From: a bacterium
Lineage (GTDB): Bacteria > Bacteroidota > Ignavibacteria > SZUA-365
Direction: 5' to 3'
DNA length: 64,000 nucleotides
NCBI GenBank assembly: GCA_020444325.1
Contig: JAHLLD010000012.1
Location: 62,001-126,000 of the forward strand
The notes under the pieces were generated by a model. The model searched no databases. It worked only from the letters and a program-made list of their open reading frames with translations, and was not told the DNA's origin. A program made the position numbers and the translations under genes. Positions 3,877-12,999 of the stretch are shown here, piece after piece. Each line of letters begins with the position of its first letter. Position 1 is the first letter of the stretch.

Positions 3877-4806
3877 TCAGGCCATTTCCTCGAACAGCGC
3901 CGTACTGAGATACCGTTCACCCGTGTCAGGAAGAACGGTGACAACATTCTGTCCCTCATCCATCTCCTGCGCGCAGCGAACGGCCACACTCGCGGCAGCG
4001 CCGCAGGAAATGCCAACGAGCATCCCCTCCTTGCGGGCAAGCGCGCGTGCCATGGCGATGGCTTCTTCCGTGCTCACTGTCATGATTTCATCGATGACGC
4101 TGCGATCGAGGATTTCAGGCACGAAGCCGGCGCCAATGCCCTGGATTTTGTGGGGACCGGGCTCACCGCCGCTCAGCACCGGCGATTCTTCCGGTTCCAC
4201 GGCAATGATGCGGACGTCGTCGCCGAGTTCCTTGCGCAGCACCTGTCCCACACCCGAGATGGTCCCACCCGTTCCCACGCCGGCAACGAAGGCGTCGATA
4301 TGCATGCCCTCCATATCCTCGAGAATCTCCACCGCCGTCGTTTCCCTGTGTGAGGTCACATTGGCCTGGTTGCGGAACTGCTGGGGAATGAACACGGCTT
4401 CCATGTTCGCGGCGAGCTCCTGTGCCCTGTCGATTGCGCCCTTCATCCCTTTCTCCGCTTCGGTGAGCACGAGTTCCGCACCAAGATGACGCAGAATGCT
4501 GCGGCGCTCCTGGCTCATGCTTTCGGGCATGGTGAGAATCAGGCGGTATCCTTTAACTGCACAGACCATGGCGAGTCCGATGCCCGTGTTTCCTGAAGTC
4601 GGCTCGACGATGGTGGTGCCCGGACCAATGACGCCTTCCTTTTCCGCCGTCTCTATCATGTACAAGGCGGGACGCTCCTTGACGCAGCCAAGGGGATTGA
4701 AGGATTCGAGCTTCACCCACACGGTCGCGCCCTTTTCGGGAGAAAGCCGCGAGAGGCGAACCAGCGGTGTACGTCCAATGCTCTCGTTGATATTCTGAAA
4801 ACGCAT
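3877..4806 (-). CDS. cysK: Cysteine synthase (O-acetylserine sulfhydrylase)
   Basis: This PLP enzyme of fold type II has 309 residues, the usual length. The cofactor lysine is K43 in NPLGCVKERPA, where most family members have GSVKDR, so the serine-aspartate pair is replaced by cysteine and glutamate. The substrate loop PTSGNTGIG, the glycine-rich phosphate loop GVGTGGTISG and the C-terminal GISCGAAAS are intact. It makes L-cysteine from O-acetylserine and sulfide in the cytoplasm. It starts 21 bases after the cysE stop, so serine acetylation and sulfhydrylation are encoded together. CysM-type thiosulfate use or a cystathionine beta-synthase-like role cannot be excluded from sequence alone. 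Confidence 0.88.
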   Translation of the reverse strand: MRFQNINESIGRTPLVRLSRLSPEKGATVWVKLESFNPLGCVKERPALYMIETAEKEGVIGPGTTIVEPTSGNTGIGLAMVCAVKGYRLILTMPESMSQERRSILRHLGAELVLTEAEKGMKGAIDRAQELAANMEAVFIPQQFRNQANVTSHRETTAVEILEDMEGMHIDAFVAGVGTGGTISGVGQVLRKELGDDVRIIAVEPEESPVLSGGEPGPHKIQGIGAGFVPEILDRSVIDEIMTVSTEEAIAMARALARKEGMLVGISCGAAASVAVRCAQEMDEGQNVVTVLPDTGERYLSTALFEEMA

Positions 4807-4827
4807 GTTCCTGCGCTCCTTTCCTTT

Positions 4828-5760
4828 TCAAATAGTGTAGTACCAGGCAGCGTTGTCACGGTCGCCGGCGGGAATGACATTGATGCGCGGCTCGCTCGTG
4901 ACAACGGCATGCGCCTCGACGGATTTGACGAGCCAGACATTTCCTCCGATCACCGCGTCGTGGCCGATTTCCGTTTCGCCCCCGAGTATGGTTGCTCCTG
5001 CATAAATGGTGACGCGGTCTCCGATGGTCGGATGCCGCTTTTTTTCCGAAAGTTCCTTCCGCACGCTGAGCGCGCCGAGAGAGACGCCCTGGTAAATTTT
5101 GACGTGCTCCCCGATGAGTGTTGTTTCCCCGATGACCACACCCGTACCGTGATCGATGTGGAAATACCTGCCGATCTGTGCGCCCGGGTGGATGTCGATT
5201 CCCGTCCTGCTGTGTATGTACTCGCTCATCATGCGCGCGATCAGACGCACACCGTGCGTCCAGAGAAAATGGGCCACCCGGTGTACCGCAATGGCACGGA
5301 GTCCCGGATAACTCAGGATGATTTCTTCCCGCGATTTCGCGGCAGGATCTCCGCTGAGCAGAGCTTCCACGTCGGTCGAAAGAACGCTGCGCAGCTGTGG
5401 GAGCGCACGAAAGAAATGCTCGACGATGTCGCAGGCTTCCTCGCGCAGCCCCGATTCATGTTGCAGCGCCCCGTTCTCCCCTCGATCAAAGTGCAGATTC
5501 TTCCGCACCTCCTCCACCAGCTTCTCATACACGCGCACGAGCCGGCCCCCGGTCAGGAAGCTGAGGTTGGCCCGGCTGAGCGATTCATCACGGAAAAATC
5601 CCGGAAAAAGCAGCGCCTCAATATCCCGCACCACGTCGATGATGGCATCGCGGGATGGAAGGTTGTTGCCCTGAAAGTGATTGATACCACCTTCGCGGTG
5701 ATATGAAGCGAGCAGGGCTTCTGTGAGGTCCTGCATGTCGCCCTGATGTTCTGTATTCAT
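4828..5760 (-). CDS. cysE: Serine O-acetyltransferase (EpsC/CysE type)
   Basis: The 310-residue protein has the long helical N-terminal half of EpsC-type serine acetyltransferases and a C-terminal left-handed beta-helix of hexapeptide repeats. Catalytic residues lie in HIDHGTGVVIGE, with H201, D203 and H204. The repeats continue through IYQGVSLGALS, IGDRVTIYAGATILGG and IGGNVWLVKS. It transfers acetyl from acetyl-CoA to L-serine, giving the substrate of the next gene. The ATG at 5760 is preceded by AAAGGAG at a good distance. A longer reading from 5988 would run through the divergent promoter region and lacks family similarity. It is the first gene of the cys-hpn operon. Confidence 0.9.
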   Translation of the reverse strand: MNTEHQGDMQDLTEALLASYHREGGINHFQGNNLPSRDAIIDVVRDIEALLFPGFFRDESLSRANLSFLTGGRLVRVYEKLVEEVRKNLHFDRGENGALQHESGLREEACDIVEHFFRALPQLRSVLSTDVEALLSGDPAAKSREEIILSYPGLRAIAVHRVAHFLWTHGVRLIARMMSEYIHSRTGIDIHPGAQIGRYFHIDHGTGVVIGETTLIGEHVKIYQGVSLGALSVRKELSEKKRHPTIGDRVTIYAGATILGGETEIGHDAVIGGNVWLVKSVEAHAVVTSEPRINVIPAGDRDNAAWYYTI

Positions 5761-5924
5761 GTCGACTCCTTTCTGCCTCAACGCAGAATATTGGAAGAGG
5801 ATTCCTTTCCGTGCGGGGAAAAGTGTATCACGGAGCCGCCGGGCCGTATCCATTTTCGTGAATTCCGTATCTTTGGCACATGAAACACGACAATTCAGTG
5901 CATAATCCGCAGCTTCTTCGCACG

Positions 5925-6737
5925 ATGTTCCTTCAGATGGTCTGCCGTACGGGACGCCGCCTGCAGCTGCTGCTGTTCCTCCTGCCATTTTTCATCATCC
6001 TTCCCGCCATGCTCCACGCGCAGGTCAACACGGAAAAGCTCCGCCGCGATGGCGAGAAAACCGGGGTGTTTTTCAACACCGGGGTGGCACTCGGACTGGT
6101 ACGCGGGAATTCCGAATTCGTCTCCGTCGAGGGTGATCTGCGTTTCGACTACGTGCGGACGGACAACGACAACTTTGTCGTACTCAACTATGCGTTCAAG
6201 GAAGCGCGCCAGGGAAAAATCGCGAACAAGGGCTTCCTGCACGGAAGAAGTATATGGGATGTGGCTTCAGCCCTTGCGGTGGAAGGATTTGCGCAGGCCG
6301 AGTTCAATGAATTTCTCTCCCTGAAGAACAGGGATCTCCTCGGCGCAGGGGCGCGATGGAAAGCGATCGACCTGCGGGACAATGATGAAAAAAGTCGTCT
6401 CGAAATCTTCCTCGGCATCGGTGCGATGTTCGAGCATGAGGAGTATGACACGAGTCCCGCTGCCCTGCGCTTCGACCGCATGCGTTCGACGAATTACCTG
6501 ACCCTGAACTGGACGCCCTCCGACGCCGCGGCAGCCACCCTGATCGCGTACGCGCAGCCGCTTGTCGAGAATCCGGAGGATGTGCGCATCATCACCGATG
6601 CATCCGTCGAATGGAAAATCGTAGCGGGACTCCATTTCAACGTGCGCTGCAGCTGGCGGTATCACAGTCGTCCCGTAACCGACGTCAAGCGCTATGATCT
6701 TGAGCTGACCAACGGACTGCGGCTGTCACTTCCCTGA
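5925..6737 (+). CDS. DUF481/YdiY-like outer-membrane protein
   Basis: A signal peptide (hydrophobic core LQLLLFLLPFFIILPAML, cleavage after LHAQ) is followed by about 240 residues of alternating polar and hydrophobic strands. The blocks GLVRGNSEFVSVEGDLRFDY, LLGAGARWKAI, IFLGIGAMFEHEEY and KRYDLELTNGLRLSL match DUF481 outer-membrane beta-barrels. The function of the family is not established. The ATG at 5925 gives a normal signal-peptide n-region. An earlier ATG at 5880 would add 15 residues and lies only four bases behind a TATCTTTG box at 5868-5875, making it a poor start if that box is a promoter element. The gene is divergent from cysE. Confidence 0.75.
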   Translation: MFLQMVCRTGRRLQLLLFLLPFFIILPAMLHAQVNTEKLRRDGEKTGVFFNTGVALGLVRGNSEFVSVEGDLRFDYVRTDNDNFVVLNYAFKEARQGKIANKGFLHGRSIWDVASALAVEGFAQAEFNEFLSLKNRDLLGAGARWKAIDLRDNDEKSRLEIFLGIGAMFEHEEYDTSPAALRFDRMRSTNYLTLNWTPSDAAAATLIAYAQPLVENPEDVRIITDASVEWKIVAGLHFNVRCSWRYHSRPVTDVKRYDLELTNGLRLSLP

Positions 6738-6825
6738 GCAGCGTTTCCGTCACACGCGTCGTCATGGGAATAATCTGTGCCATTGTGTGTCCTTCCATCA
6801 CACACTACCCGGCAGGAGGTTCAGA

Positions 6826-8481
6826 ATGATTCGTTTTGCATGCCTGTTTCTCATCCTCACTTCATTTTGTCAATCGCAGCAGTACCAGGTCTGGGACTTC
6901 CCGGAAGGGACGAAATACGTATCCGTTCGATCCATCGATGACGGTATCGTCGCCATGGAGGAAAGAACAGATGTACAGGCGTATGGAGGACATATCCCGG
7001 GGTGGTATGTCGAAGCGGTTGTCAATGCGTTTATCCCGAAAGATGATGGAACACTGCGGCAGTACGTCCTTCGTCCTGATACGACCTACCACAGTGGACA
7101 GCAGATGGAGTACACAGCTCCCGTGTACACGTCGGATTTCACTCGCCTGGATGATGAGACTGTACTTGCCGTGCTGGCAACCGCGGAGGTGCAATACACC
7201 GATCTGGGCTCATGGATCACGAATATCCCCCCGATGCGGCTTTTCGTTCTTCATGACACCGGATTGGAAGTTCTCGCTGAAATACCGGGTGCGCTGAATC
7301 CATCGTTTCATCGCACACAATCGGGCGACATCCTTATGGTGTGGGACGAGCGCAGCATTCCGGACGAGCCATGGGAAATATCTTCGTCCGATGATGCTGA
7401 GATTCATGTGGCGCGTGTGAGTGCATCTGATGGACTTCAGGATGCCGCCGTCATCGGATCCGGTTTTCGGCCGCATTGGATTGAAACAACGGATGGCAGC
7501 CGCTACCTCGCCTATCTCCACAGTGTACACCGGGAACGGAACGACAGGCTCGACTTCACACTGCGCCAGGTTGCGCCATCAATCGGTCAGCCAGCAGCGC
7601 TCGACAGCATGATCCGGGAGAGGCTTGCAACCGGCTACGCAGACTTCCCTCACAACCTGCAGACCTGCGTGAATGCTCAGAATGGTGTATCCATCCTTCT
7701 GGAAAGCGATTCGCTGCGCTTCATGCACCGCTCCGGAAATGGTCAGTTCACTCAGTATGCAACAAGGCTCGGCCGGGGTGCACAGCTTGCGCTCTATGGC
7801 AGCGAAGAAACACCCACGGTATTCTGGCGCCGCAATGATGGAGCCGTGGTATGGTCGGATATGAGTATGGGTGTAATGTTTACCGTGGTTGACACGGTGA
7901 ACGGCGCCGCCGAGCATCCGCACTGGTCGAACCAGTGGACGACGCAGCGATGGATCGACGGCAACATCACGTTACTCCACCGTTCACAGGATCTGCACCG
8001 GTCGATCATCGTGCGACAGAACGCCACCTCCCCGACATCGAACGGGACGCTGCTCTTCACCCTTCCGGAAGACCGCACCGAAATTGTGAGCTGGCTGCTG
8101 AAGGATGACGCGACCCTCTGGTTGACACAGACCGACACGACACTTGACGGCACGGTGCGCTCCGCACTGTACAGGGTTACCGATCTGCCGCTGAGCGCTT
8201 CGGCAGCGCCTGTGCTTCCAGTGCAATCCGCAATACTCGGCAGCTTTCCTTCACCCACCCGGGGAGTGACGACACTGAACTACAGAGCTGCGCATGCCGG
8301 CGTCGTTCACCTCACGTTGCACGATTTGCTTGGGAAAAGATGTGCCAGGCTTGGTGATCGTATCGTCCACACCGGCGATCAGCTCCTGTCCCTGCGCCTG
8401 CCGGATCTGCCGACAGGAACCTACCTGCTTTCTGCCGTGACAGGGACGCAGCGCATCACCCGTCCCCTGCTCATTCGCTAG
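6826..8481 (+). CDS. Secreted protein with T9SS type A sorting domain
   Basis: This 551-residue secreted protein has no recognised catalytic domain. It begins with a signal peptide (MIRFACLFLILTSFCQSQ) and ends with a T9SS C-terminal sorting domain. In that domain, the block SFPSPTRGVTTLNY is followed by VHLTLHDLLGKR, then LPTGTYLLSAV, and finally RPLLIR. The middle contains repeated short beta motifs and many aspartates and tryptophans, compatible with a beta-propeller-like surface protein. The ATG at 6826 is preceded by a strong AGGAGG at six bases, which rules out the ATG at 6787. It is probably exported through the Sec and then the T9SS machinery to the cell surface. It appears monocistronic. 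Confidence 0.8.
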   Translation: MIRFACLFLILTSFCQSQQYQVWDFPEGTKYVSVRSIDDGIVAMEERTDVQAYGGHIPGWYVEAVVNAFIPKDDGTLRQYVLRPDTTYHSGQQMEYTAPVYTSDFTRLDDETVLAVLATAEVQYTDLGSWITNIPPMRLFVLHDTGLEVLAEIPGALNPSFHRTQSGDILMVWDERSIPDEPWEISSSDDAEIHVARVSASDGLQDAAVIGSGFRPHWIETTDGSRYLAYLHSVHRERNDRLDFTLRQVAPSIGQPAALDSMIRERLATGYADFPHNLQTCVNAQNGVSILLESDSLRFMHRSGNGQFTQYATRLGRGAQLALYGSEETPTVFWRRNDGAVVWSDMSMGVMFTVVDTVNGAAEHPHWSNQWTTQRWIDGNITLLHRSQDLHRSIIVRQNATSPTSNGTLLFTLPEDRTEIVSWLLKDDATLWLTQTDTTLDGTVRSALYRVTDLPLSASAAPVLPVQSAILGSFPSPTRGVTTLNYRAAHAGVVHLTLHDLLGKRCARLGDRIVHTGDQLLSLRLPDLPTGTYLLSAVTGTQRITRPLLIR

Positions 8482-8541
8482 CGCACATCGGTTGCCCCAA
8501 GGTGATCACTCAAGTCTGCGAATGCATTCGACAGAGCGAAC

Positions 8542-9729
8542 TCAGCTGATAATCCGGAGGCTTCCTTCGGCGGGAATGAGGATGTCATGTTCCCTACGTT
8601 CCATGTCCTTCAGCGTGATGACATCATAGCGCTGCACGCGCTCTGCATCGGCATTGCGGTCCGTTCCGTCGCGCCGGTTGCGCTGGCAGACCGATCTCCC
8701 TTCTTTCCCGCACATATGCCACCACAACCGTCCTTTCTCGTCGAAACGTTCACTGACGACACGCGTCAGCATTTCGCTGGTAGTGGATGTCCTGCCGGGA
8801 GCGGATGTGTCCAATGCTTCTCTGAGCGTCTTTCCATTCCTGTTGAGAACAACGTAACTGTACTTGAGTGACTTCTTGATATTGCCGATTTCCTCATCGA
8901 GTTCTTCCATGAAATCGGGCCGTTCCCACGGGAGGTCGTCATGGCACCAGTCGGTGGACTTGATAAGTGCGGGACAATCCTTCTGCCGCAGGCAGGGTGA
9001 AAAAACCGTCCACCCTGCACGCACAGCCTCATCCCGCAATTCCAGCAGAGCGCGAGAGGTTTCACGCAGCGCAGGTTCTATCAGCAGCAGCTGTCCGTTT
9101 GCATCAGTCCGATCCCCCAGCCATGTGAGCAGCTGCGCGCGCTTTGCGGGAGGAAGCTCGTTGACGACATTCATCGCGAGAACAAGGTCGTACCGTTCCT
9201 TCAGCGGGGGCGGTGATGTCAGGTCCGCTGACTGCGTCGTGACATGCATGGACAAACCGCCTCGTGCGCTGACTGCAGTCGCGACCAGCTCGTATGTCGC
9301 TAGATTCTGTGACACGGCGTCAATTGCAGTGATGTGGATTTCCGGAATCGCGTCAGCGGGATACAGTTCGGGGAGCAGAGCCGCGAGTCCGGCAGCAGCC
9401 GTTCCGGGTCCCGCCCCAAGGTCCAGCACACGCAACGCACCCCCTGGCAGAGCATCCGCCATCGCAAGCTCGCGCAGCGCACGATGGAGTTTGAGCATGT
9501 TTGCGGAGCTGTAATAGACGAGATAGGCCGTCCGCAGACGCTTATCCTTCATATACCGCTGCGCGCCACTCCCGCGCGCATCCGTCGCATTCAGATATGC
9601 TGTCAGCTGCCGCAATGCTGGCAGCAGGCGATGCAGCTGCGAGCTGTCGCCGGTGTCGATACCCGTCACCTGCCGCAGGGCCTCAGGCCACCATGCTGGG
9701 AGCTGCAGTTTTCCGGGCTTCAGCGCCAT
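8542..9729 (-). CDS. Rsm22-like small-subunit rRNA methyltransferase with cysteine cluster
   Basis: This 395-residue Rsm22/METTL17-family protein carries an SAM-binding fold: motif I is VLDLGAGPGT (101-110), with acidic residue D137 in TAIDAVS and AMNVVNELP near 185-193. Downstream are cysteines C246, C252, C262, C340 and C348. The spacing C-x5-C-x9-C followed by a distant cysteine resembles the positions that bind an iron-sulfur cluster in METTL17, the mitochondrial relative. Family members act on or near the small ribosomal subunit. The N-terminal PAWWPEALRQV is typical. It lies 33 bases behind a small acidic protein gene and is probably co-transcribed with it. The family call is firm; cluster binding is inference. 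Confidence 0.8.
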   Translation of the reverse strand: MALKPGKLQLPAWWPEALRQVTGIDTGDSSQLHRLLPALRQLTAYLNATDARGSGAQRYMKDKRLRTAYLVYYSSANMLKLHRALRELAMADALPGGALRVLDLGAGPGTAAAGLAALLPELYPADAIPEIHITAIDAVSQNLATYELVATAVSARGGLSMHVTTQSADLTSPPPLKERYDLVLAMNVVNELPPAKRAQLLTWLGDRTDANGQLLLIEPALRETSRALLELRDEAVRAGWTVFSPCLRQKDCPALIKSTDWCHDDLPWERPDFMEELDEEIGNIKKSLKYSYVVLNRNGKTLREALDTSAPGRTSTTSEMLTRVVSERFDEKGRLWWHMCGKEGRSVCQRNRRDGTDRNADAERVQRYDVITLKDMERREHDILIPAEGSLRIIS

Positions 9730-9762
9730 ATCACAATCCGCCCAGGAGTACTGATGGTGTGG

Positions 9763-10005
9763 TCAGTCATCATCCTCTTCACCAGCTCCATAAAGCTCTA
9801 TTTCCTCGTTCGCGTCAATGATGATGGACGCAAGATCAACCACTGCGACCGCCCTTTCACGAGGCACGAAGGTTCCGAGCAGGGCCATGCCGGCATCGAG
9901 CCGCGCACCAGCGTCATCATTGTCAAAAATATCAGTCAGCACCTTGTTCATTTCCTCAGGCGTGAGATTGAGAAATCCCTTCTGCATGGCTTCTTCGAAC
10001 TTCAT
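9763..10005 (-). CDS. Small acidic protein of unknown function
   Basis: The product has 80 residues with a helical N-terminal half (TPEEMNKVLTDIFDN), a hydrophobic central segment and a very acidic tail (GAGEEDDD). It has no signal peptide or clear membrane span. The start has AAGGAGA upstream at a proper distance, which supports real translation. It precedes the Rsm22-like gene by 33 bases in the same direction, so a shared transcript and a link to ribosome assembly are possible but unproven. I recognise no family. Confidence 0.6.
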   Translation of the reverse strand: MKFEEAMQKGFLNLTPEEMNKVLTDIFDNDDAGARLDAGMALLGTFVPRERAVAVVDLASIIIDANEEIELYGAGEEDDD

Positions 10006-10196
10006 GTCTTCTCCTTGCTGTGCTCTGGCAGATAGTTACTTTCTTCCGCTGTCGCGGCTCCCGAAATATACACAAATCACATCACCGCGTTGACGGATAT
10101 TCCCCCCTGCTATTCGTTTCTCTCTCCTATTCCTTTCCGCCCCGCGATTCCGTATTTTTTTGCGATAGTACGTGCCTCATCACAGCACTCAGCTTC

Positions 10197-10697
10197 ATGC
10201 CAGCATCACTTCCCGACTGTTCCCACATCGCACTGCGCCGCGTCCGTGAAGAAGACGCCACATCATTCCTCTCCCTGATCGATGCGCTCGCGGCGTATGA
10301 GAAGCTCGATCCCCCCGACGCTGCCGCCCGCGACCGGCTCATGCGCCATGCGTTTGGTGATCACCCCCGCTACGAAGCATTTCTCGCATCCATTGACGGG
10401 GAGGATGTGGGGTACGCCATCATCTATGAAACGTATTCCAGTTTTCTCGCCCTGCCGACGATGTATCTCGAAGATATCTTCGTGCTGCCCGCGGCGCGGG
10501 GGAAGAAAGCCGGATTGGCGCTGTTCCTGCACGTTGCCGGACTGGCGCGTGAACGGGGCTGCGGGCGGATGGACTGGACGGTACTCGACTGGAATACGCT
10601 GGCGCAGGACTTCTACGATCGGCTTGGCGCCACGCATCTGAAGGAATGGCAGCTGTACCGGCTCGACAGTACCGCCCTCGCGAAACTGGAGTCCTGA
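10197..10697 (+). CDS. GNAT family N-acetyltransferase
   Basis: The 166-residue GNAT protein resembles diamine N-acetyltransferases. The acetyl-CoA segment is LEDIFVLPAARGKKAGLALF, where RGKKAG takes the place of the Q/RxxGxG/A loop. It is followed by the conserved WTVLDWNTLAQDFYDRLGA, with the tyrosine that often acts as general acid. The ATG at 10197 is the first one at which family similarity starts. A reading from 10020 would add a cysteine-rich, unrelated extension. The acceptor could be a polyamine, amino acid or other small amine. It is followed 76 bases later by the dipeptidyl peptidase gene. Confidence 0.8.
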   Translation: MPASLPDCSHIALRRVREEDATSFLSLIDALAAYEKLDPPDAAARDRLMRHAFGDHPRYEAFLASIDGEDVGYAIIYETYSSFLALPTMYLEDIFVLPAARGKKAGLALFLHVAGLARERGCGRMDWTVLDWNTLAQDFYDRLGATHLKEWQLYRLDSTALAKLES

Positions 10698-10773
10698 AAC
10701 GCATCCTGTTGCACGCAGACAACAACGCACAGCATTGATACAAACGCTCCGCTTTGATACAACGAGGAATACA

Positions 10774-12999
10774 ATGAAACGCAGCACATCGCAACGCAAC
10801 ACTACCCTCCTGCTTCTCATTTTCCTGATCACACTGCTTCCTTCCGGCCTCACGGAGGCACAGGAGAAAAAGCCCGTCACGCTGAGGGACGTTTTCGGCA
10901 ACCCGGCCTTCTTCGCGCCACGGATGGCGAACCTGCAGTGGATGGCCGACGGAGAACATTACGCCTATGTCAAGTTCAACCGGGAATCCCGCAGTATGAC
11001 CATCGTCAAGGTCAATGCACGCACGGATGAGGAAGCCATTCTGCTCGATCCGGCGAATCTGCAATTCGAGGGCTCCGATGACGCGGTCACCTTTGAATCG
11101 TTTTCCCTGCAGAAAAATCCACGCTTCCTGGTTCTGACGCTCGATGAGCGTCCCATCTGGCGCCGCTCCACCATCGGCACGTACGCCGTGTACGACCTGG
11201 AAACAGGTGCGCTCATCGCCCTGCCGGAATACGAGGAAGGCGTGATGAACGTCAAGGTGTCGCCGGACGGACAGTGGGTCGGCTATGTGTACAAGGACAA
11301 CATTTACATCATGAATCTCGCGAGCGGCGACGTGCGTCAGCTGACCAGCGACGCGCGAGAGGATGTGCATAACGGACGATTCGGCTGGGTGTACGAAGAA
11401 GAATTCAGCATCGTCGACGGATGGCAGTGGTCCCCCGACAGCAAGCGCATCGCGTTCTGGCAGGAAGATGAAACCATGGTGCCCACCTTCGAGATGGTCA
11501 ACTTCATGCCGCTGTACATGGAGCGCATTCCCATTCGCTACCCGAAGGCGGGAGACAGCAATCCCGTCGAGAAAATCGGCATCATCGATCTGGCCGATGG
11601 CAGCCGCCGCTGGATGGACATCGGGGAAGAAACCGATCAGTACATTCCCCGTATTCGGTGGACAAAGGACGCAAACACACTCTGCATGTACCGGCTGAAC
11701 CGGCTGCAGAATCACGTGGAACTGCTTTTCGCAAATGTCGAGGACGGCAGTTCCCGCGTCGTACTTTCCGACCGCTCTGAAACGGGCTGGATCAGCGTAG
11801 ACGACGGCGCCTTCCTGCATTTCATGGATGACGGCCATCGCTTCCTCTGGGCGTCCGAGCGCGACGGCTGGAATCATCTCTATCTGTATGATTATGACGG
11901 CAGCCTGCTGCGCCAGGTGACCTCAGGCGAATGGGAAATCGTCGATGTGCTCGGCGTCACGCCCGACGACGCGCAGGTTTACTTCACCGCCACGAAGGAA
12001 GCACCGACACAGCAGAATCTCTATCGCGCCGCTGTTGAGGACGACGATATGGATCGACTGACCGAAGACGACGGCTGGCATGCGATCAACCTCTCACCCA
12101 CCTGTGCACTCTATATCGACAGCTGGTCGAGCATCGAGGCCCCTACGCGCCGCATGCTCTGCGACGGCGATGGCGATGAACTGCGCAGCCTCGGCGCGGT
12201 CGATCCTACCGTCTACGCGGAATATTCATGGAGCGACAAGGAGCTGTTTACGGTGACCACCGACGACGGCTGGACGCTGGACTGCAGCATGATCAAACCC
12301 GCAAACTTCGATCCTTCCAAAAAGTACCCGGTGTTTTTCGATGTCTACGGCGGTCCCGGCACATCCGCCGTGCGCAACAGCTGGCCCAGCACCATGGCGG
12401 AGTGGTACGCCAGCGAAGGCTTCATCGTCATTGAAGTCGACAACAGGGGAAGCAGCCGCCGTGGTACCGCATTCAAGCATGCCGTGTACAAGCAGCTCGG
12501 GAAATGGGAAGCCCATGACTACGTCCAGGTCGCCAATTACCTTTCCACCCTCCCATTCGTGAACGCCGACCGCATCGGCATCTGGGGCTGGAGCTATGGC
12601 GGGTATATGGCGGCACTGACCTTGCTGCTGGGCAACGGCACCTTCCATGCCGGCGTCGCCATCGCTCCGCCGACCGACTGGCGACTGTATGACACGATTT
12701 ACACGGAACGCTTCATGCAGCGTCCCCAGGACAATCCGGAAGGTTACGACGTCGGCTCCTGCCTCGTGCATGCCGACAAGCTGCAGGGCAGGCTGCTCAT
12801 CATTCATGGCGGACTCGATGACAACGTGCACGTGCAGAACACGATGCAGTTTGTGCATAAACTCGAGGAGGCCGGCAAGCAATTCGATATGCGCATATAT
12901 CCCAATGGCAACCACGGCGTCGCCGGCGGCATGCAGTCGCGTCTCGGACTCTTCGAATACTACGTCCAGCACATGAAGGAACATCTGCAGGATCAGTGA
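10774..12999 (+). CDS. Secreted S9B dipeptidyl-peptidase IV-like serine peptidase
   Basis: This 741-residue protein has a signal peptide (LLLLIFLITLLPSGLTEAQ), an eight-bladed DPP IV-type propeller of about 450 residues and a C-terminal alpha/beta-hydrolase domain. The nucleophile is S607 in GWSYGG. Catalytic aspartate (D682 or D683 in GGLDDNVHV) and histidine H714 (GNHGV) follow in the usual order. The propeller contains RFGWVYEEEF, which matches the double-glutamate motif that binds the substrate amino group in DPP IV. It should remove N-terminal dipeptides from peptides in the periplasm or outside the cell. The ATG at 10774 has GAGGAA upstream. A strong terminator follows at 13021-13055. 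Confidence 0.88.
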   Translation: MKRSTSQRNTTLLLLIFLITLLPSGLTEAQEKKPVTLRDVFGNPAFFAPRMANLQWMADGEHYAYVKFNRESRSMTIVKVNARTDEEAILLDPANLQFEGSDDAVTFESFSLQKNPRFLVLTLDERPIWRRSTIGTYAVYDLETGALIALPEYEEGVMNVKVSPDGQWVGYVYKDNIYIMNLASGDVRQLTSDAREDVHNGRFGWVYEEEFSIVDGWQWSPDSKRIAFWQEDETMVPTFEMVNFMPLYMERIPIRYPKAGDSNPVEKIGIIDLADGSRRWMDIGEETDQYIPRIRWTKDANTLCMYRLNRLQNHVELLFANVEDGSSRVVLSDRSETGWISVDDGAFLHFMDDGHRFLWASERDGWNHLYLYDYDGSLLRQVTSGEWEIVDVLGVTPDDAQVYFTATKEAPTQQNLYRAAVEDDDMDRLTEDDGWHAINLSPTCALYIDSWSSIEAPTRRMLCDGDGDELRSLGAVDPTVYAEYSWSDKELFTVTTDDGWTLDCSMIKPANFDPSKKYPVFFDVYGGPGTSAVRNSWPSTMAEWYASEGFIVIEVDNRGSSRRGTAFKHAVYKQLGKWEAHDYVQVANYLSTLPFVNADRIGIWGWSYGGYMAALTLLLGNGTFHAGVAIAPPTDWRLYDTIYTERFMQRPQDNPEGYDVGSCLVHADKLQGRLLIIHGGLDDNVHVQNTMQFVHKLEEAGKQFDMRIYPNGNHGVAGGMQSRLGLFEYYVQHMKEHLQDQ

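Follow-up and report, generated by a model that had tools for sequence, protein, structure and literature searches.

The closest described relatives of the protein considered here are the mitochondrial proteins METTL17 and Rsm22. According to the accessible part of PMC9892005, an Fe4S4 cluster is an architectural cofactor of the METTL17/Rsm22 family, and the accessible text of PMC11138216 adds that the cluster had been predicted by AlphaFold. A cluster has been reported in the yeast protein in the available part of a 2024 paper (PMC11046306), and the maturation of the yeast Rsm22 cluster is the subject of PMC12375894, in the available text of which the LYR motif of human METTL17, a subgroup feature that does not define the family, is described as not fully conserved. 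The 2024 paper also states, in the same available part, that six METTL17 orthologues "spanning bacteria, fungi, and humans" share four cysteines (PMC11046306). As a feature of the sequence, the four-cysteine site has thus been described for bacteria before, while no study of a bacterial Rsm22 was found among the matches listed in the open-licence literature.

A bacterial member of this family is encoded in the window analysed here, by which we mean the whole stretch of 64,000 nt from assembly GCA_020444325.1 (contig JAHLLD010000012.1, positions 62,001-126,000, forward strand). The features discussed below are the following.

8542..9729, minus strand: full-length Rsm22/METTL17-type methyltransferase-like protein of 395 aa, assigned from Pfam PF09243, the AF2 model and fold matches
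9403..9423, minus strand: SAM-binding glycine motif DLGAGPG, residues 103-109 (G105, G107, G109), located in alignments A1 and A4
8941..8994, minus strand: putative cluster loop, residues 246-263 (C246, C252, C262, H263), aligned with the human and yeast proteins and invariant in 18/18 sequences
8698..8718, minus strand: C-terminal strand of residues 338-344 (HMCGKEG), carrying the putative fourth ligand C340 (codon 8710-8712), aligned with human C404 and yeast C513
9763..10005, minus strand: 80-aa acidic protein, the adjacent upstream gene, seen as an ORF and modelled by AF2 as four helices

In the window, 33 bp separate the stop codon of the small ORF from the ATG of rsm22. A scan for promoters and terminators over 8300-10400 gave no match, and neither did Rfam. 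The gene order around rsm22 (window 3877-12999), which is common to several genomes of the family, runs from a cysteine synthase-like gene (PALP) through a serine acetyltransferase-like gene, DUF481 and rsm22 to the small acidic gene, a GNAT acetyltransferase and a DPP-IV-type peptidase.

The Rsm22-type methyltransferase identity that had been proposed from the DNA is borne out by a PF09243 (Rsm22) match that scores 58 bits, where the cut-off is 23, and by profile and fold matches to METTL17 and Rsm22. NCBIfam returned generic methyltransferase models only for this protein, each below its own cut-off. Two alignments were used as profiles, both including the window's own sequence: A1 contains 18 sequences, the other 17 being drawn from the family, order and class by whole-protein similarity, and A4 contains 33. 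Searched singly against PDB sequences, the 395-aa protein retrieved no METTL17 or Rsm22 at E 1, but the profiles found them. With A4 the top three were human METTL17 (E 2.9e-28), Trypanosoma brucei Rsm22 (2.6e-22) and yeast Rsm22 (1.5e-17), and with A1 the best two were the yeast and T. brucei Rsm22 proteins, human METTL17 being sixth of eight.

An AF2 model built on the 18-row alignment A1 (mean pLDDT 91.5, pTM 0.91) shows the METTL17 arrangement of a Rossmann methyltransferase core, a cluster loop and an OB-type C-terminal domain. In structural comparisons, the best matches of this model were METTL17/Rsm22 structures: Foldseek ranks 1-7 are human METTL17, yeast Rsm22 and T. brucei Rsm22, and VIA-align 2 ranks 1-11 are entries of the same family, with Z 24.5-29.6 over 321-352 residues and the next fold at 16.8. 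Human METTL17 (8csp chain 7, entry 8csp_7) superposes with Z 29.6 over 321 residues at 3.0 Å and 18% identity, covering model residues 4-375; yeast Rsm22 (8d8j, 8om2) gives Z 26.8-27.9 and T. brucei mt-SAF1/Rsm22 (6sg9, 6sgb, 9hny) Z 24.5-24.7.

The protein has five cysteines in all, C246, C252, C262, C340 and C348. As in the Rsm22/METTL17 family, three of them (C246, C252 and C262) lie in a loop after the core and a fourth (C340) in the OB-type domain. In the A4 profile alignment, with residues counted by hand, C246/C252/C262/C340 stand opposite C333/C339/C347/C404 of human METTL17 and C373/C379/C400/C513 of yeast Rsm22, and these human and yeast residues are the ones reported to hold a [4Fe-4S] cluster in the available part of PMC11046306. 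The T. brucei protein also has cysteines opposite all four columns, where the stretch carrying the fourth scores negative by itself. The pattern is far beyond chance, because each of the four columns coincides with a cluster ligand published for human METTL17 and yeast Rsm22. The METTL17-like cysteine site claimed in the original prediction thus stands: the failure to align that had been named as fatal to it did not occur, all four cysteines being in register with the cluster ligands of METTL17 and yeast Rsm22. Its alternative of C340 or C348 as the fourth residue is settled in favour of C340, which aligns and is invariant in 18/18 sequences of A1, whereas C348 was rejected as a ligand, the position being cysteine in just 6/18 aligned sequences, the window's among the six. 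A radical SAM enzyme was likewise considered and rejected, since cysteines at 246, 252, 262, 340 and 348 do not fit the CxxxCxxC spacing.

Although human METTL17 shares with the window's protein the fold, the four cluster cysteines and the GxGxG motif, it differs in that its LYR tyrosine falls on N359 here (by hand count), the LYR motif being absent, and in that its first-ligand PC-x-H reads PC-x-R. The same difference separates our protein, with PCLR, from that of Bradyrhizobium and many others, which carry PC-x-H. Yeast Rsm22 resembles it in fold and in the register of its four cysteines but has lost the last SAM glycine and acquired long extra loops, according to the accessible parts of PMC8171064 and PMC11046306, whereas GxGxG is intact here. 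The T. brucei protein has the same fold but is much longer, at 1041 aa, with large insertions.

Among prokaryotes the site is widely shared. C246, C252, C262 and C340 are invariant in all 18 sequences of A1, and the full set of four is in register in 28/33 sequences of A4 and in 36/41 prokaryotic sequences in total, the set of 41 consisting of A4 and eight A1 members absent from it, with the window's own in each. Nitrospira (L035), Bradyrhizobium (L045) and Methanocorpusculum (L038) proteins carry four cysteines like ours, and PF09243 was found in L034, L038 and L045 and in 31/33 A4 members at E 1e-4. The sequences L034-L045 are matches listed by a two-pattern scan, one pattern of which holds C262, and they are therefore biased toward that residue. 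Several sequences were dropped before the count of 36/41 was made: L019, which is partial and reaches a contig end; L046-L049, generic methyltransferases recognised as such by Pfam (L046, L048) or by eye (L047, L049); and L083-L093, 11 matches from the phylum with at most 27.1 bits, of which three exceed the Pfam cut-off of 23. L078 and L079 are repeats of sequences already counted. A lack of the site in members elsewhere in the phylum, considered at one stage, was rejected: C-G in place of C-P had defeated the search pattern, and the sequences and alignment show the cysteines.

The exceptions among the 41 are five. Three are archaeal, from Methanocorpusculum and Methanolinea records (L038, L040, L041), in which the third cysteine lies across its tryptophan, two columns earlier, so that C-W-T or C-W-S takes the place of the x-W-C of other members; these loci (L038:4665-6083, L040:4656-6068 and L041:1301-2854) encode four cysteines each. 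In L082 the segment with the fourth cysteine is missing. The last, from a single genome, is an Opitutae MAG record (L037, 4779-6017), in which D, D, S and I replace the four cysteines while the neighbouring W and H are kept. It aligns with the A1 profile at E 2.2e-26 over 287 columns (hhalign), although its match to the Pfam Rsm22 model is weaker than E 1e-4. The joint loss of the four cysteines, with W and H retained, fits what is expected if the cysteines work as a unit.

Rsm22 itself is patchily distributed. It was found in 19/61 genomes, own included, and in 11/12 members of the own family. In a sample of 296 genomes of the phylum, PF09243 was detected in 24 at E 0.001, of which 13 score at least 56 bits and the other 11 at most 27.1 bits. 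The three low-scoring matches that were read (L083-L085) are short methyltransferases lacking the cluster loop, and weak matches to PF09243 can be regarded as unspecific because 3/14 control genomes also match, one above the cut-off. Given this distribution (19/61 genomes; 13/296 at 56 bits or more), Rsm22 is an accessory gene in the phylum and no universal assembly factor.

An AhpC/TSA-type peroxiredoxin gene, identified with Pfam, lies directly upstream of rsm22 at L068:6646-7197, L069:6943-7470 and L044:4060-4665, the first two being genomes of one family and the third an Acidobacteriaceae record; this neighbour provides a thin hint of a redox connection. In four genomes of family f12, a different short protein of 63-95 aa is encoded on the same strand downstream of rsm22 (L064:5120-5392, L065:5232-5519, L066:4454-4645 and L067:7198-7476).

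We hold with considerable confidence that the window encodes a bacterial Rsm22/METTL17 which, by homology, would carry a [4Fe-4S] cluster on C246, C252, C262 and C340 and act in the assembly of the small ribosomal subunit, and for which the acidic protein is a lineage-specific neighbour. The type of cluster, the binding of rRNA and the role in assembly are carried over from the mitochondrial relatives; on this analogy, the cluster is likely and the role in ribosome assembly plausible. The four-cysteine site would be formed by C246, C252 and C262 from the loop after the core together with C340 from the C-terminal OB-type domain, and the [4Fe-4S] cluster would pin the Rossmann methyltransferase core and the OB-type domain together, such that the protein could bind the head of the small subunit during assembly. 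Its SAM motif suggests that it may, in addition, still methylate RNA.

A different possibility, which we regard as tentative, is a SAM-dependent RNA methyltransferase whose target is not 16S rRNA but, for instance, tRNA; the cluster would then be structural, and the protein would have no role in ribosome assembly. The SAM glycines are in favour of this, G105, G107 and G109 being invariant in the 18 sequences of A1 and the 33 of A4. The patchy occurrence of rsm22 is in keeping with such a reading, as is the composition of its surroundings, no ribosomal gene having been recognised beside it in the neighbourhoods that were read, mostly by eye; a tRNA substrate has, moreover, been proposed for yeast Rsm22 in the available part of PMC8171064. 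Against it, the model keeps the full METTL17 architecture, and relatives with solved structures are found on the small subunit.

It is rather improbable that the four cysteines form a purely structural zinc site that holds no cluster and has no connection with iron. The site was modelled with zinc in the T. brucei homologue, and zinc has also been proposed for yeast Rsm22 (accessible part of PMC8171064), but the histidine of the proposed yeast zinc site, H375, falls on R248 here, a residue that is nearly invariant in A1, and Fe4S4 is reported at the same site in the mitochondrial proteins in the available parts of PMC9892005 and PMC11046306. SUF-type cluster assembly genes (PF01458) occur at two places in the genome of our organism, and likewise in all 14 control genomes. 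The window contains no Fur-box-like site when up to 3 mismatches are allowed. A putative link between iron and the ribosome in bacteria is plausible.

The small acidic ORF described ahead of the rsm22-type ORF is present, and its product is strongly acidic, with 20 D/E against 6 K/R. With a profile at E 0.01, homologues were found in 11 of the 12 own-family genomes and in 0/282 others of the class; three matches outside the family (G022, G047 and G051, single-sequence E 0.04-0.1) were taken as chance because the profile does not confirm them at that threshold. The homologues have a mean column identity of 66% and are all acidic, the calculated pI of 4.05 for each of the 11 being probably the floor of the program. 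AF2 predicts four helices (pLDDT 81.4). The 80-aa protein belongs to no Pfam or NCBIfam family, matches no PDB sequence below E 0.5 and no fold at E 0.001, and shows no metal-ligand pattern, cysteine being absent from 10/11 homologues and none of the 11 carrying a second histidine. A PADLOC match to AbiEii at E 0.012 was taken as chance. We conclude that the small protein is a family-restricted orphan and a lineage-specific neighbour.

The partnership that the original prediction had drawn between the two proteins is upheld as adjacency and weakened as a fixed functional bond. In 8/12 family genomes rsm22 follows the small gene directly and on the same strand, with a gap of 6 to 303 bp in seven and, with the start codon chosen, a 23-bp overlap in one; GGAG-type sequences precede all 11 start codons of the small gene, as judged by eye. 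In G001 the two genes are 1422 bp apart, and the opposite-strand gene between them looks like one for a glycosyltransferase. In G005 they are on separate contigs, the small gene staying beside the GNAT and DPP-IV genes; in G010, a draft that is 96% complete, the small gene stands in an unchanged gene order, but rsm22 is missing from its usual place and there is no Rsm22 match; and G007 has rsm22 and lacks the small protein. The small genes of G001 and G002 had escaped automatic gene calling and were found by profile. Since the two genes are separated or unpaired in G001, G005, G010 and G007, the bond of the small gene is to its place rather than to Rsm22; it is probably co-transcribed with rsm22 in most members of the family and would not be required by it. 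That the acidic protein is an obligate regulator or chaperone coupling Rsm22 to iron status is, despite the close spacing on one strand, the GGAG-type sequences and the conservation, very unlikely in the face of these separations and of the scarcity of cysteine and histidine in its homologues.

The four-cysteine site of our Rsm22/METTL17-type protein is not special, being shared by most of the prokaryotic sequences compared here and already in print for bacteria. Of the side results, the Opitutae homologue, which has none of the four cysteines and was seen in one genome, is the most interesting; on a reading that we regard as very unlikely, it would be a natural iron-independent version of the protein. 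Should the bacterial proteins carry a cluster in the way their mitochondrial relatives do, this homologue would serve as a natural control, and the iron-sulfur checkpoint that governs ribosome assembly in mitochondria would be a prokaryotic inheritance rather than a mitochondrial invention, open to study in a bacterium that is easy to grow.
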